Position numbers and translations under genes: made by a program. Positions 1,757-5,448 of a stretch of 49,304 nt of DNA are shown here, one piece after another; position 1 is the first letter of the stretch; each line of letters opens with the position of its first letter. Under the pieces are notes generated by a model. The model saw nothing but the letters and a program-made list of their open reading frames with translations, ran no database searches and was not told the origin of the DNA. The DNA comes from a virus. The stretch spans positions 1-49,304 of the IMG/VR virus record IMGVR_UViG_3300045977_000284; one strand, given 5' to 3'.

Positions 1757-1780
1757 GGTAACTACATACTTGGCTCATCA
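1757..1780 (+). repeat. IS terminal inverted repeat, left
   Basis: A 24-bp sequence beginning GGTAACTACATACTTGG, the exact reverse complement of 3695-3718. It forms the left end of the element. Confidence 0.93.
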
Positions 1781-1835
1781 CGCCGATTTCCTTTACGATT
1801 CGTCAGAAAAGAATTTTGAACAAAATCTCCAAAAT

Positions 1836-1908
1836 ATACCTGTTTCATCATTGACATTACGTGATGTGACAGGTATATTATAAGTGTCAGGACAATTGAT
1901 ACCTGACA
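1836..1908 (+). promoter_or_regulatory. IS promoter with overlapping operator-like repeats
   Basis: A near-consensus sigma-70 promoter: TTGACA at 1851-1856, 17 bases, TATATT at 1874-1879. It would drive the rightward IS genes. Overlapping it are inverted copies of ATACCTGT at 1836-1843 and ACAGGTAT at 1869-1876. Just downstream is a second dyad, TGTCAGG at 1885-1891 and CCTGACA at 1902-1908. The spacing around the -35 and -10 suits a repressor that limits transposition, but no repressor has been identified. Confidence 0.7.
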
Positions 1909-1957
1909 ACGCGGCCAACCGGCGATCAGGTTGGAGGACGCTATCTCGGAGAGAAAC

Positions 1958-2197
1958 ATGAACAATTTCAGCGAACTCGCAGCGTGGAACGCCCCCGTGG
2001 CCCGTGAAGGAAACTTCCGCTGCAAAGCATTCAGTGGCGAAGGCGTCAGGCTGAATCGCATCCGCGTCGAGAAGGACGGTTCGGTCTTGGTATGGGATTC
2101 GGTCGCTGGGCATTTCACGACTTGCCACAGTTTGTCGGCAAAAGCTCAAGATCGTCTCCGAGCAAAGATGGCCTTGAGGGGTAGCATCGCGTCGTGA
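1958..2197 (+). CDS. IS passenger: small hypothetical protein
   Basis: A 79-residue protein starting MNNFSELAAWNAPVAREG. The ATG at 1958 is preceded by GGAGAG at good distance and lies about 75 bases downstream of the predicted IS promoter. The middle part (RIRVEKDGSVLVWDSVAGHF) looks like a small beta-rich fold. No family recognised. It is the first frame in the element and may be a regulator or a passenger; function unknown. Confidence 0.6.
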   Translation: MNNFSELAAWNAPVAREGNFRCKAFSGEGVRLNRIRVEKDGSVLVWDSVAGHFTTCHSLSAKAQDRLRAKMALRGSIAS

Positions 2198-2207
2198 TAC
2201 TCCGAGT

Positions 2208-2294
2208 CCCACCGGGGAGCGGCGCAAGCCGCGTTCCGCGCCAGGAGTCGCGGCCCCGACGTAACCATTCGTCCCCCGGTGGGGCGTCCTTTTT
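2208..2294 (+). terminator. branched RNA structure with T-run inside the IS
   Basis: A 10-bp closing stem (CCCACCGGGG at 2208-2217 with CCCCGGTGGG at 2274-2283) encloses two hairpins: GCGGC-GCAA-GCCGC at 2219-2232, with a GNRA-type loop, and CCGCG/CGCGG at 2236-2253. A TTTTT run follows at 2290-2294. It lies between two IS genes. It can act as an intrinsic terminator or attenuator; the three-way shape could also be a cis-regulatory RNA. Confidence 0.55.
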
Positions 2295-2321
2295 CCCAAT
2301 TCAACCAGCATGGAGAAAAAA

Positions 2322-2534
2322 ATGAGCCTGTCCCAGACTATCGCCACGACAATAATCGAAGGCCACGCCGACTTGACCGCCGAAGCTCGCTGGCTCAGCG
2401 CCATCAACGCCGAAATGCTCGAAGCGCTCAAGCTGGCGTACCGTTCGGCCCGCGTTGTGCATGGGGCGCAGAGCGAGCTTTGCGTGCGGCTGGAAAACGT
2501 CATCGCTAAAGCCCAAGGCGGAGTAAAGTCATGA
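2322..2534 (+). CDS. IS passenger: small helical hypothetical protein
   Basis: A 70-residue, mostly helical protein (MSLSQTIATTIIEGHADLTA). The ATG at 2322 has GGAG six bases upstream; another in-frame ATG lies at 2310. Its TGA overlaps the transposase ATG (2531-2534, ATGA), so the two are probably co-translated. It contains an ARWLSAINAEMLEALKLAYR helix and resembles no domain I can name. The coupling suggests an accessory role in transposition or its control. Confidence 0.6.
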   Translation: MSLSQTIATTIIEGHADLTAEARWLSAINAEMLEALKLAYRSARVVHGAQSELCVRLENVIAKAQGGVKS

Positions 2535-3493
2535 ACGAAGGCCCGCAAACGCTCGTCGAGGCAGTACGGTATTTTTCTGATAAGGCCGTCTGCCTCGACT
2601 ATATGAAGCAAATCAAGTGGCCCGATGGCAAAGTCACCTGCGCCAAGTGCGGCGGCGACAACATCGGCATCATCGCGTCGCGCGACATGTTCCAGTGCCG
2701 CGCCTGTCGAAAACAGTTTTCGTGCAAGGTGGACACGATTTTTGAGGATAGCCCTCTCGGATTGGATAAGTGGTTCGTCGCGGTCTGGATGATCGCAAAT
2801 TGCAAGAACGGCGTCAGCAGTTTGGAGCTTCACCGCGCTCTGGGCGTCACCCAGAAAACCGCGTGGTTCATGCTTCACCGGATTCGGCTCGCGATGCGTA
2901 CCGGATCGTTCCGCAAGATGACGGGCGTTGTCGAGAGCGACGAAACTTTCGTTGGCGGTCGCGCGGCCAACATGCACCGCGAGAAACGGGAGCGGACCAT
3001 CACCGGACGCGGCGGAGTCGGCAAGGCAATCGTCCACGGGTTGCTTGAGCGCGGCACTGGCGACGATCCGAGCCAGGTCCGCGCCACCGTCGTGCCGAAC
3101 ACGGAAGCGGAAACGCTCGTCCCCGAAATTCTTCGCAACGTCGAACGCGACACGTTCGTTTGCACGGACGCGCACGCCAGCTACGCCGCTCTCAGTTCGC
3201 GCTACATCCACCAATTCATCGACCATGCCACGCGGTATGTCGCGGGCAAGGTCCACGTCAACGGCCTCGAAAATTTCTGGTCGCTGCTCAAGCGTATGCT
3301 CAAGGGAACTTACGTTGCCGTCGCGCCATTTCACCTGTTCCGCTACCTGGACGAAGAGACGTGGCGATTCAACAATCGGCGCAAGAGGGACGGAGGCCGC
3401 TTCGCGTGGATCATGCGGGGCGTGCTGGGCCGTCGCATCACCTACCGGCAACTGTGCGCGATCGACGATTGCGGATTCATGGGCATCCAATAA
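2531..3493 (+). CDS. tnpA: IS1595-family transposase (ISXO2-like DDE)
   Basis: A 320-residue transposase. It has an N-terminal zinc ribbon (C37-A-K-C40 and C56-R-A-C59), then a helix-turn-helix-like segment (SSLELHRALGVTQKTAW). The DDE RNase-H-fold core shows D137 in VESDETFVGGR, D213 in CTDAHASY and E247 in VNGLENFWSLLKR. The C-terminal YLDEETWRFNNR block is typical of the family. All catalytic residues are present, so it is probably active. The start is fixed by the overlap with the upstream stop. Confidence 0.95.
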   Translation: MNEGPQTLVEAVRYFSDKAVCLDYMKQIKWPDGKVTCAKCGGDNIGIIASRDMFQCRACRKQFSCKVDTIFEDSPLGLDKWFVAVWMIANCKNGVSSLELHRALGVTQKTAWFMLHRIRLAMRTGSFRKMTGVVESDETFVGGRAANMHREKRERTITGRGGVGKAIVHGLLERGTGDDPSQVRATVVPNTEAETLVPEILRNVERDTFVCTDAHASYAALSSRYIHQFIDHATRYVAGKVHVNGLENFWSLLKRMLKGTYVAVAPFHLFRYLDEETWRFNNRRKRDGGRFAWIMRGVLGRRITYRQLCAIDDCGFMGIQ

Positions 3494-3510
3494 CGACACG
3501 GAGGCGAGCC

Positions 3511-3663
3511 ATGTCAGAGCCAGCAAAGCAACCGTTCGGCGGCAAGGCGTTCGACGATCTTGCGCGGAAACTGGCGCACGTTCCCAAGTCGCTCGTCGTT
3601 GCCGCAGAGAAGCGGTACGAAGAACGAAAAAAGGAACGGAAGAAAAAACGGCGGAAATCATAG
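3511..3663 (+). CDS. IS passenger: small basic protein
   Basis: A 50-residue frame starting MSEPAKQPFGGKAFDDLARK and ending in a very lysine/arginine-rich tail (KKERKKKRRKS). A GGAGGCGAGCC binding site stands just before the ATG. It begins 17 bases after the transposase stop and ends 32 bases before the right terminal repeat. The basic tail suggests binding of nucleic acid, but the function is unknown. Confidence 0.5.
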   Translation: MSEPAKQPFGGKAFDDLARKLAHVPKSLVVAAEKRYEERKKERKKKRRKS

Positions 3664-3694
3664 GTCGGCATCGTCCTTGCTTGCAAGCGGCTCA

Positions 3695-3718
3695 TGATGA
3701 GCCAAGTATGTAGTTACC
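3695..3718 (-). repeat. IS terminal inverted repeat, right
   Basis: Exact reverse complement of 1757-1780. It forms the right end of the IS1595-family element and is followed directly by the second ATTACGAG. Confidence 0.93.
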
Positions 3719-3726
3719 ATTACGAG
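3719..3726. repeat. target-site duplication, right copy (ATTACGAG)
   Basis: Identical to 1749-1756 and directly adjacent to the right terminal repeat. Confidence 0.95.
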
Positions 3727-4119
3727 GGCCTGAGCCGGGAGATTCTCAAGAGCGTCGAGCCAGGTGTAGGCGGCGCCGGCCGTCATGGCGTCTGCCTCAT
3801 TGACGATCAGCACGCGCCAGCCGGACCCGCTGAACGGGCGGTGTGCGATCGACTTCATCGCCTGTCGCACGCTATCGCCGGTCTGCTCGCCAGACGTGAT
3901 CTGATGCAGGCCGCCGAACTCGGCCTCGTCGATGGCCACGCCCAGCTCGATCGCCAGGGCGATGGCCGTCGAAGTCTTGCCGGTGCCTGTGCCGCCGGCG
4001 AAGACGAAGGCGCCGGCGTGCGGGGTTTCCAGCCATAGCTTGAGCTGGTGAACGATCCAACTCTGCCCATAGACCGTGTCCAGGCTGCCAGGGCGATAGG
4101 CATCGACGAGGGCTTTCAT
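3719..4119 (-). pseudogene. AAA ATPase (clamp-loader-like), N-terminal piece, truncated by IS1595
   Basis: The 5' part of the AAA ATPase gene. The ATG at 4119 overlaps the stop of the upstream gene. Residues 1-110 give DAYRPGSLDTVYGQ (as in DNA polymerase III gamma/tau and RFC-like loaders), Walker A GGTGTGKTSTA at about 42-52 and a Walker B-like VLIVNEAD at about 103-110, with N in place of the usual first D. The frame reads about 20 residues into the insertion before stopping at 3658. Without the C-terminal half it should lack the sensor and arginine-finger regions. The intact gene was probably a phage replication or recombination ATPase. Confidence 0.82.
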
Positions 4120-4400
4120 TGTCCGGCCCTCCCCTCCTGGTGCGCGCGGGCCTTAGCCGCCTGCTCCAAGAGCTGCTGGGCGAGCTGCTCTGCCTCCGCC
4201 GGAAACAGCATGAGCGTATAGGGACGATCCTTGACGGCCGCCGGCGTGGGTCGGCTGCCTTGCGCGTCCGTATGCTTCTCATTGACTTCCAGGTGCACAC
4301 AGACGCCATAGGCCCATGACAAGCTACCAAGGGAGTAATCGGAAATCTGACTGACCCCGATGCCGTTGTGACGGCGGCGCATGTAGATCGTTTTCTTCAT
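4116..4400 (-). CDS. hypothetical protein
   Basis: A 94-residue protein starting MKKTIYMRRRHNGIGVSQIS. It overlaps both neighbours by ATGA (4397-4400 upstream, 4116-4119 downstream). The first two thirds look like a compact beta-rich fold (SWAYGVCVHLEV, PYTLMLFPAEAEQ). The C-terminus is an alanine/glutamine-rich helix. No family recognised; part of the leftward early operon. Confidence 0.7.
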   Translation of the reverse strand: MKKTIYMRRRHNGIGVSQISDYSLGSLSWAYGVCVHLEVNEKHTDAQGSRPTPAAVKDRPYTLMLFPAEAEQLAQQLLEQAAKARAHQEGRAGQ

Positions 4401-4621
4401 GACCTACCCCCTTGCGCCGCGTCCTCACGCAATTCATCCTTGAGCAAATCGACGACGATTTGCATGTCGCCGATGGCCGCCCTGGTGCTGGTGTAGAGGT
4501 ACGCGAACCCTGTCTCTGCCTGTTCCTGTTCCTCTGTCTCAAGGTTCTCGACTATCAGATTGACCGTTTCCTGCGCACGCTTCAGGTTGCGAAGGATGCG
4601 GCGCTTGAGTTTGTTCTTCAT
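4397..4621 (-). CDS. hypothetical coiled-coil protein
   Basis: A 74-residue, highly helical protein (KRRILRNLKRAQETVNLIV, then ENLETEEQEQAETG) ending in QIVVDLLKDELREDAAQGG. The heptad-like pattern suggests a coiled coil or helical bundle. It overlaps the flanking genes at 4618-4621 and 4397-4400 by ATGA. No family recognised. Confidence 0.7.
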   Translation of the reverse strand: MKNKLKRRILRNLKRAQETVNLIVENLETEEQEQAETGFAYLYTSTRAAIGDMQIVVDLLKDELREDAAQGGRS

Positions 4622-5043
4622 GACTGACCGCTGCCTTTCTTCCTGCGGGCCTTGCGCGCCTTCGCCGCCGCCTTGCTCGCCGCGCGAGCCGCTTCCGACG
4701 TGAAGCCGATCTGCTCGCCGCGGGCCTTGCGGGCCTGCGCCGCTTCCTTGCCGATCCGCTTGCGGATCGAGAGGGTGAGCGATTCACGCTGCCGGGCGAT
4801 CGCGTCCGCGGCGGCCGGCGGGATGGCGAGGCGGACGCTGCCGGTGTCGTCCACGTACTGAATGAAAATGGTGTCGCCCTGCTCGCGCTGGCGAAAGGTT
4901 TGGATGATGAACGTCTGGCTGGCGCCGATGATCGCCGAGTGCTGACTCACCGTCGACGGCTTTGTCTTGGCGACGTCGGGCAGGTCCGTCAGCGCCCCCA
5001 TCATCCGATCGAACTTGTCAACCGTTCTGTACTCCTCTGGCAT
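4618..5043 (-). CDS. hypothetical protein with basic alanine-rich tail
   Basis: A 141-residue protein starting MPEEYRTVDKFDRMM. The ATG at 5043 follows GGAGGATCAACC, and that ribosome binding site lies in the 3' end of the twister-like element. The frame is open further up, but that part reads through the RNA element. The first 90 residues include a beta-like segment (FIIQTFRQREQGDTIFIQYV). The C-terminal 50 residues are alanine/arginine/lysine-rich (SKAAAKARKARRKKGSG), as in nucleic-acid-binding tails. Family unknown. Confidence 0.75.
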   Translation of the reverse strand: MPEEYRTVDKFDRMMGALTDLPDVAKTKPSTVSQHSAIIGASQTFIIQTFRQREQGDTIFIQYVDDTGSVRLAIPPAAADAIARQRESLTLSIRKRIGKEAAQARKARGEQIGFTSEAARAASKAAAKARKARRKKGSGQS

Positions 5044-5046
5044 GGT

Positions 5047-5170
5047 TGATCCTCCGGGCTTGCAACCGGCCGGCGAAGTGCCGGGCCGCATTAAACCGGA
5101 CGTGTGCCGTTTGCCGTCTTGCCCTTGCGGGCTCTTGGGGTCTCGGGCACACGCCGGTTTGCTCTGCGTC
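5047..5170 (-). ncRNA. twister-like self-cleaving ribozyme, copy 1
   Basis: Read on the minus strand the segment has GCAGAGC, a long hairpin, then UUUAAUGCGGC, a 5-bp hairpin, then CCGGUUGCAAGCCCGG. These are the conserved blocks I recall for twister ribozymes, in a permuted order with stem P1 closed by a loop. P1 pairs AAACCGGCGTGTGCC with GGCACACG-T-CCGGTTT (one bulged T). The P3-like hairpin is CCGGC-ACTTC-GCCGG. By analogy, cleavage would fall between U at 5093 and A at 5092, about 50 bases upstream of the ATG at 5043. Assignment rests on remembered consensus and on comparison with copy 2. Confidence 0.75.
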
Positions 5171-5363
5171 ATGCCGACCTGGATCGTCGGCCGGACTTCA
5201 CTTCCTCTTCGGGGGTGACCGATTCCTCTGGCGGCTGCCAAAGCAACACCAGGGGCGCCTTGTCGGTCTGATCCGATCCGAGCTTGCGGGCCGCGTCGTT
5301 GACGCCGGCGAGAATGGACTCCTCGCTCCGACGACGCAGCCATGAAAAGAACGTGGTGAACAT
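5169..5363 (-). CDS. hypothetical small protein between two ribozymes
   Basis: A 64-residue protein starting MFTTFFSWLRRRSEESILAG. The ATG at 5363 has GGAGGATCGATC just upstream, provided by the second twister-like element. The N-terminus is amphipathic with aromatic residues. A central LVLLWQPPEESVTPEE segment and a basic C-terminus (KSGRRSRSA) follow. No family recognised. Its stop overlaps the start of the next ribozyme-like element by about two bases. Confidence 0.6.
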   Translation of the reverse strand: MFTTFFSWLRRRSEESILAGVNDAARKLGSDQTDKAPLVLLWQPPEESVTPEEEVKSGRRSRSA

Positions 5364-5366
5364 GAT

Positions 5367-5448
5367 CGATCCTCCGGGCTTGCAACCGGCGTCCGACGTG
5401 GACGGCCGCATTAAGCCGAGGGCTTCCCTGCCCCGGCTTGCTCTGCGT
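5367..5448 (-). ncRNA. twister-like self-cleaving ribozyme, copy 2
   Basis: It has the same ordered blocks as copy 1: GCAGAGCAA, P1 hairpin, UUAAUGCGGC, short hairpin, CCGGUUGCAAGCCCGG, then GGAGGATC and an ATG. P1 here is AAGCCG-GGGC paired with GCCC-T-CGGCTT, with a bulged T at the same place. The short hairpin is CGTCC-ACGTC-GGACG. Compared with copy 1, three of its five base pairs changed on both sides and still pair. That is covariation expected of a selected RNA stem. Predicted cleavage lies between U 5413 and A 5412. The element starts right after the TAA of the DUF932 gene. Confidence 0.77.

Follow-up and report, generated by a model that had tools for sequence, protein, structure and literature searches.

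Here we describe two segments on the minus strand of an early phage operon that, from their sequence and predicted fold, are with near certainty type-P5 twister ribozymes (RF02684), a circular permutation of the twister fold, and we propose, at a probability of roughly 0.6, that they split the early mRNA between its cistrons. Both lie in a 49.3-kb virus record of 61% G+C, the whole of which is called the window below. The record encodes the TerL terminase of a tailed phage, whose closest matches among deposited-phage terminases are about 36% identical, and a DNA similarity search against deposited phages returned no relevant match.

The assignment draws on covariance-model scores and on the presence of the elements that define the family. 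Against the RF02684 gathering score of 37.6 bits, copy 1 lies above and copy 2 lies 0.2 bits below, with a local E of 3.7e-6 in 701 bases (Table 1); a faster-filter search of the whole genome returned a shorter and weaker match for copy 2, at 21.8 bits. The low score of copy 2 arises because its long P1 hairpin is an insertion relative to the model, and a sensitive scan aligned all 58 model positions. Using the helices, pseudoknots and U-A cleavage step described for twister (PMC5408937), we found in both copies helices P1, P2 and P4 in the P5 order (CGCAGAG-P1 hairpin-UAAUGC...CCGGU..CAAGCCCGG), a T1 pseudoknot between L1 and L4 (GCA:UGC), a T2 pseudoknot between the GC of L2 and the GC of L4, a U-A step with its conserved A at the 3' edge of P1, and the conserved L4 guanine within an intact CAAG. 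P2 (CGCA/UGCG) and P4 (CCGG/CCGG) are common to both, and the defining twister sequence elements are complete in each. Compared with RF02684, sequence, P1, P2, P4, T1, T2, block order and the U-A step are the same and nothing essential differs, the local peculiarities being the unusually long P1 of copy 2 and a P4 3' strand that merges with the Shine-Dalgarno sequence.

A preliminary description had recognised ordered twister-like blocks in these segments, and all of them are found in both copies where it placed them: each copy opens with CGCAGAGCA followed by a P1 hairpin with a single bulged U, and the window contains TTAATGCGGC-N-GCCGGTTGCAAGCCCGG exactly two times, against 0 expected from 100 shuffles. 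The covariation it had pointed to holds as well, since three pairs of the 5-bp P3 hairpin are altered on both sides (CGUCC/GGACG in copy 1, CCGGC/GCCGG in copy 2), and the P1 stems differ in length and sequence while pairing is kept. Its twister-type reading is supported, the covariance-model hit it had asked for being above the gathering score for copy 1 and 0.2 bits short of it for copy 2, and is narrowed to type P5; its two predicted cut positions are correctly placed, and the "about 50 bases" it allowed to the next gene correspond to leaders of 49 nt in both cases (5412..5364 and 5092..5044), each ending in GGAGG-N7-ATG. Judged from family membership, both copies very probably self-cleave. 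The core of copy 2 is that of copy 1, with a P1 hairpin about 40 nt larger that holds an inner GCCC-GCAA-GGGC hairpin; no match was found for this large structured insert (5093-5160, minus strand), which could be a protein or ligand site. A search of the window for further divergent twister cores gave 12 matches at up to 3 mismatches, not above chance.

Table 1. Features of the ribozyme-bearing operon, in window coordinates.
Feature	Position	Strand	Basis or remark
Weak sigma-70-like site	6730-6703	-	10/12, consensus match only
First operon gene, 72 aa	6437..6655	-	ORF
DUF932 (PF06067) protein, 312 aa	5449..6387	-	Pfam E 5.7e-54
Twister-P5 copy 1, 74 nt	5374..5447	-	RF02684 48.8 bits; fold; T1/T2 after PMC5408937
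Copy 1 P2	CGCA 5447-5444 / UGCG 5410-5407	-	
Copy 1 T1	GCA 5441-5439 : UGC 5384-5382	-	
Copy 1 P1 hairpin	about 5438-5414	-	
Copy 1 predicted cleavage site U5413/A5412	5412..5413	-	Inferred from conserved twister U-A step
Copy 1 T2	GC 5406-5405 : GC 5379-5378	-	
Copy 1 P3	5404-5400/5394-5390	-	
Copy 1 P4	CCGG 5389-5386 / CCGG 5377-5374	-	
Shine-Dalgarno GGAGG of 64-aa ORF	5371..5375	-	Leading two G shared with the end of copy 1 P4
64-aa ORF, between both ribozymes	5169..5363	-	ORF; start ATG 5363
Twister-P5 copy 2, 115 nt	5054..5168	-	RF02684 37.4 bits; fold z = -3.05
Copy 2 predicted cleavage site U5093/A5092	5092..5093	-	Inferred from conserved twister U-A step
Shine-Dalgarno GGAGG of 141-aa gene	5051..5055	-	Overlaps copy 2 P4 likewise (two G)
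141-aa gene, downstream of copy 2	4618..5043	-	Start ATG 5043; homologues in other phages, 47-64% identity
74-aa, 94-aa and clamp-loader-like ORFs	3658..4621	-	ORF coordinates; clamp loader PHROG E 1.2e-17

The operon runs on the minus strand from about 6655 to 3658 and includes a DUF932 gene and a clamp-loader gene besides small genes; the ribozymes lie in two of its gaps. Both ribozymes occupy the two non-overlapping junctions downstream of the DUF932 gene: the stop codon of that gene (TAA, 5451-5449) lies 1 nt ahead of copy 1, and that of the 64-aa ORF (TGA, 5171-5169) directly abuts copy 2 with 0 nt between them. The 141-aa, 74-aa, 94-aa and clamp-loader genes follow one another with 4-nt overlaps at each junction, all free of ribozymes. 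With ribozymes at these two gaps and 4-nt overlaps further downstream, the operon reads as translationally coupled blocks parted by ribozymes. A specific tie between the ribozyme and the 141-aa gene was considered and rejected, as orthologues in four other phages have no ribozyme upstream; the ribozyme is thus not bound to any one gene. Neither Pfam nor PHROG gave a match for the 64-aa ORF, and a pattern search of viral contigs found no relative. At the far end of the operon, the clamp-loader gene seems to be cut short by an IS1595/ISXO2-type insertion (1757-3718; transposase 2531-3493), which is bounded by perfect 24-nt terminal inverted repeats (1757-1780 and 3695-3718).

Relatives of the two ribozymes come for the most part from environmental phages. 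One pattern scan found twister cores in 97 viral contigs and a P5-specific scan in 80; bacterial genomes or MAGs supplied 19 stretches (Planctomycetota, Acidobacteria and relatives, Clostridia and others). Both variable pairs of T1 are kept in 22 of 27 distinct core rows (shuffle mean 6.3, maximum 13 in 2000 shuffles); the T1 letters were not part of the first pattern scan. By pair counting, the T1 covariation score was 0.220 versus 0.066 (0/500 shuffles), slid versions scoring far lower. The first P2 pair covaries too, and T2 is invariant as GC:GC and thus receives no covariation support from the relatives. In L209 and L210 (records G057 and G066), copies with a P2 of GCC/GGC or GGU/ACC stand beside normal GCA/UGC copies in the same operon; such rewiring of P2 by compensation, together with stems that diverged with pairing kept, argues for selection on structure.

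Twister-like RNAs with an altered T1 arrangement were additionally observed in array gaps of two phages (L227, minus strand, about 2614 and 1594; L217, minus strand, 4888-4953). They share CAGG-NNN, G|AAAUG and GGU-NNN-UA elements (CAGGNNN ... GGUNNNUA), and their T1 is complementary in 3/3 copies (CGA:UCG twice, UGA:UCA), with a compensated T2 (GC:GC, GA:UC). In a whole-record search one copy scored 36.3 bits as Twister-P5, just under gathering, and the other two went unreported. This RNA looks like a rewired twister variant and not a new class; by a strict pattern it is confined to these two phages.

The arrangement in the window belongs to a wider pattern of multi-copy arrays. Searching whole virus records with the Rfam model, we found arrays of 2 to 9 copies in many phage records, with 9 copies in G057 and G066, 8 in G038 and G056, 7 in G025 and G044, and 6 in G021, G028 and G039; because these records were picked for containing one or more P5 sites, the proportion bearing arrays should not be read as a population estimate. 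The same model found no Twister-P5 copies in 14 control genomes. Array copies, one to a gap, lie nearly all on one strand, the single exception being in G034. Across 20 array regions and the window, ribozyme junctions have a median gap of 93 nt (n=99) and ribozyme-free junctions one of 13 nt (n=92; 55 at 20 nt or less, 34 overlapping). Furthermore, other ribozyme classes share these arrays: a type II hammerhead sits one nucleotide from a stop codon in the L223 array, and two pistol ribozymes occur in the L228 array. L003 encodes an orthologue of the 141-aa gene (52% identity), and after the gene that follows it a type II hammerhead abuts a stop codon. Genes downstream of array ribozymes are mostly small and without assignment; the few matches are to early functions, namely a UvrD-like helicase, DUF932, ArdC and PAPS reductase. 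DUF932 as a standing partner of the arrays was rejected as a rule, being present in 5 of 28 records scanned (window included). By position, three loose gaps within arrays that show strong hairpins but match nothing in Rfam (in array-strand coordinates, L228 2157-2257, L221 2455-2536 and L216 5551-5603) are candidates for unrecognised ribozymes. Four DUF932-bearing virus contigs (L007, L009, L013 and L017) encode a permuted tmRNA, L017 also having a dense tRNA cluster.

Where the ribozyme sits relative to the upstream stop codon is similarly patterned. Scoring a stop as at the edge or inside the core when the longest upstream ORF ended between -3 and +2 relative to the ribozyme's first base, or at position +10 (the UGA inside GCAGAGUGA), we found such placement at 57 of 97 P5 sites outside the window, as against 1 of 68 P1-type twisters and 2.7% of random same-strand positions, with the caveats that ORF calling followed simple rules and that related phages contribute non-independent sites. 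Some stops lie within the ribozyme (L212, L219, L226 and L145; in the T1 UGA or within P1), where coding sequence and ribozyme overlap. Stop abutment could reflect plain compactness of phage genomes; that reading is weakened because P1-type twisters mostly keep a distance of about 17-33 nt from the preceding stop, a space that often holds an additional hairpin (62/72). Given abutment in P5 and the spacer hairpin in the P1 type, the upstream product would in both types end in a hairpin soon after its stop. In the relatives, the median distance between cut and start codon is 56 nt.

Taken together, these observations are best accounted for by cistron separation, because the predicted cuts fall at gene boundaries, mostly leave tight junctions alone, and can be supplied by different ribozyme classes in the same place; the earlier proposal that cleavage would cut a polycistronic mRNA likewise fits the gene layout and the relatives. 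Each ribozyme would fold during or after transcription and, as its family membership implies, cut the U-A step just 3' of P1, leaving three translation units: the 72-aa and DUF932 genes, the 64-aa ORF alone, and the 141-aa, 74-aa, 94-aa and clamp-loader genes. The upstream product would carry a stable hairpin soon after its stop and a 2',3'-cyclic phosphate end, and the post-cut 3' ends are predicted by folding to carry P1 hairpins of -17 and -34 kcal/mol. The downstream product would have a 5'-OH end, followed by a 49-nt leader that includes P3, P4 and the Shine-Dalgarno sequence. Such cuts would uncouple neighbouring cistrons, with stability and translation set per unit. As bacterial RNA decay generally works, hairpins at 3' termini together with 5'-OH ends could give each mRNA its own half-life. 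The benefit to the phage could lie in separate half-lives of this kind, or in the prevention of coupled translation.

An alternative that we consider unlikely, if the strongest of those weighed, is that these are genuine ribozymes whose main job is translational control, such that folding, cutting or a ribosome paused at the stop times translation of the next gene. The overlap of GGAGG with two G of P4 in both window copies suits this idea, as does the stop at or inside the 5' core strand of most P5 relatives, where a terminating ribosome would cover CGCAGAG; yet the P4/Shine-Dalgarno overlap is absent from the other P5 sites listed, most of which have a linker, and predicted Shine-Dalgarno accessibility scarcely changes on cutting, with no clear gain afterwards in folding predictions that ignore pseudoknots. 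A bolder reading, somewhat more doubtful still, would have the stop-codon placement let the terminating ribosome cover the CGCAGAG strand and delay folding; cleavage would then report upstream translation, ribosomes would govern the cutting of whole early operons into their cistrons, and any self-cleaving class would be able to serve.

We give about the same low standing to the possibility that the ribozyme module has simply been duplicated within genomes into gene gaps with little benefit to the phage. The same T1 letters recur in 14 of 27 within-record pairs, against 22% between records, leaders are near-identical within L145 and within the window, and orthologous loci lack ribozymes, all as duplication would have it; the stems nevertheless diverge yet stay paired and P2 is compensated, which points to selection on structure, and unrelated ribozyme classes fill equivalent gaps. 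That the segments are non-cleaving, twister-shaped leaders, decayed ribozymes that persist as hairpins of the 5'-UTR or as stabilisers of the mRNA, is very improbable, for although copy 2 falls just under the score cut-off, neither copy has lost any conserved core letter or either pseudoknot, and the cores are identical while the stems have diverged.

Precedents exist both for the permuted fold and for clustered phage ribozymes. Circular permutation of twister has been described (PMC5408937, PMC10085705). Clustered prophage hammerheads, some of which cleave in vitro and in E. coli, were proposed to process transcripts into operon- or gene-length mRNAs (Perreault et al., 2011; PMC3088659), and those clusters likewise place several ribozymes around single genes or short blocks in phage operons. 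The present case, with two coding-strand ribozymes between genes of one operon in the window and up to 9 in relatives, differs in that the ribozyme is twister and not hammerhead, in the mixed twister, hammerhead and pistol arrays, and in the stop abutment and the contrast between tight and ribozyme junctions documented here across phages. Weinberg and co-workers found hammerhead, twister and pistol ribozymes near the same phage genes and near each other (PMC10085705, PMC4604425), and the reason for the enrichment of twister and hammerhead near phage genes was stated as unknown (PMC10085705); here, the placement of P5 twisters relative to stop and start codons has been measured. Neither twister-P5 arrays nor the stop-codon rule turned up in a literature search, with priority uncertain as the two founding twister papers were outside that search. 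Clustered phage ribozymes have thus been known since 2011, and the twister arrays and the stop-codon rule extend that kind.

For more than ten years, the purpose of self-cleaving ribozymes in phages and bacteria has been called unknown. The pair in the window and the arrays of its relatives point to one cut per loose junction, right after the stop, by a ribozyme whose class is exchangeable. If they do split the early mRNA between cistrons, this reading predicts 5'-OH and cyclic-phosphate ends at the positions named above and separate fates for neighbouring cistrons.
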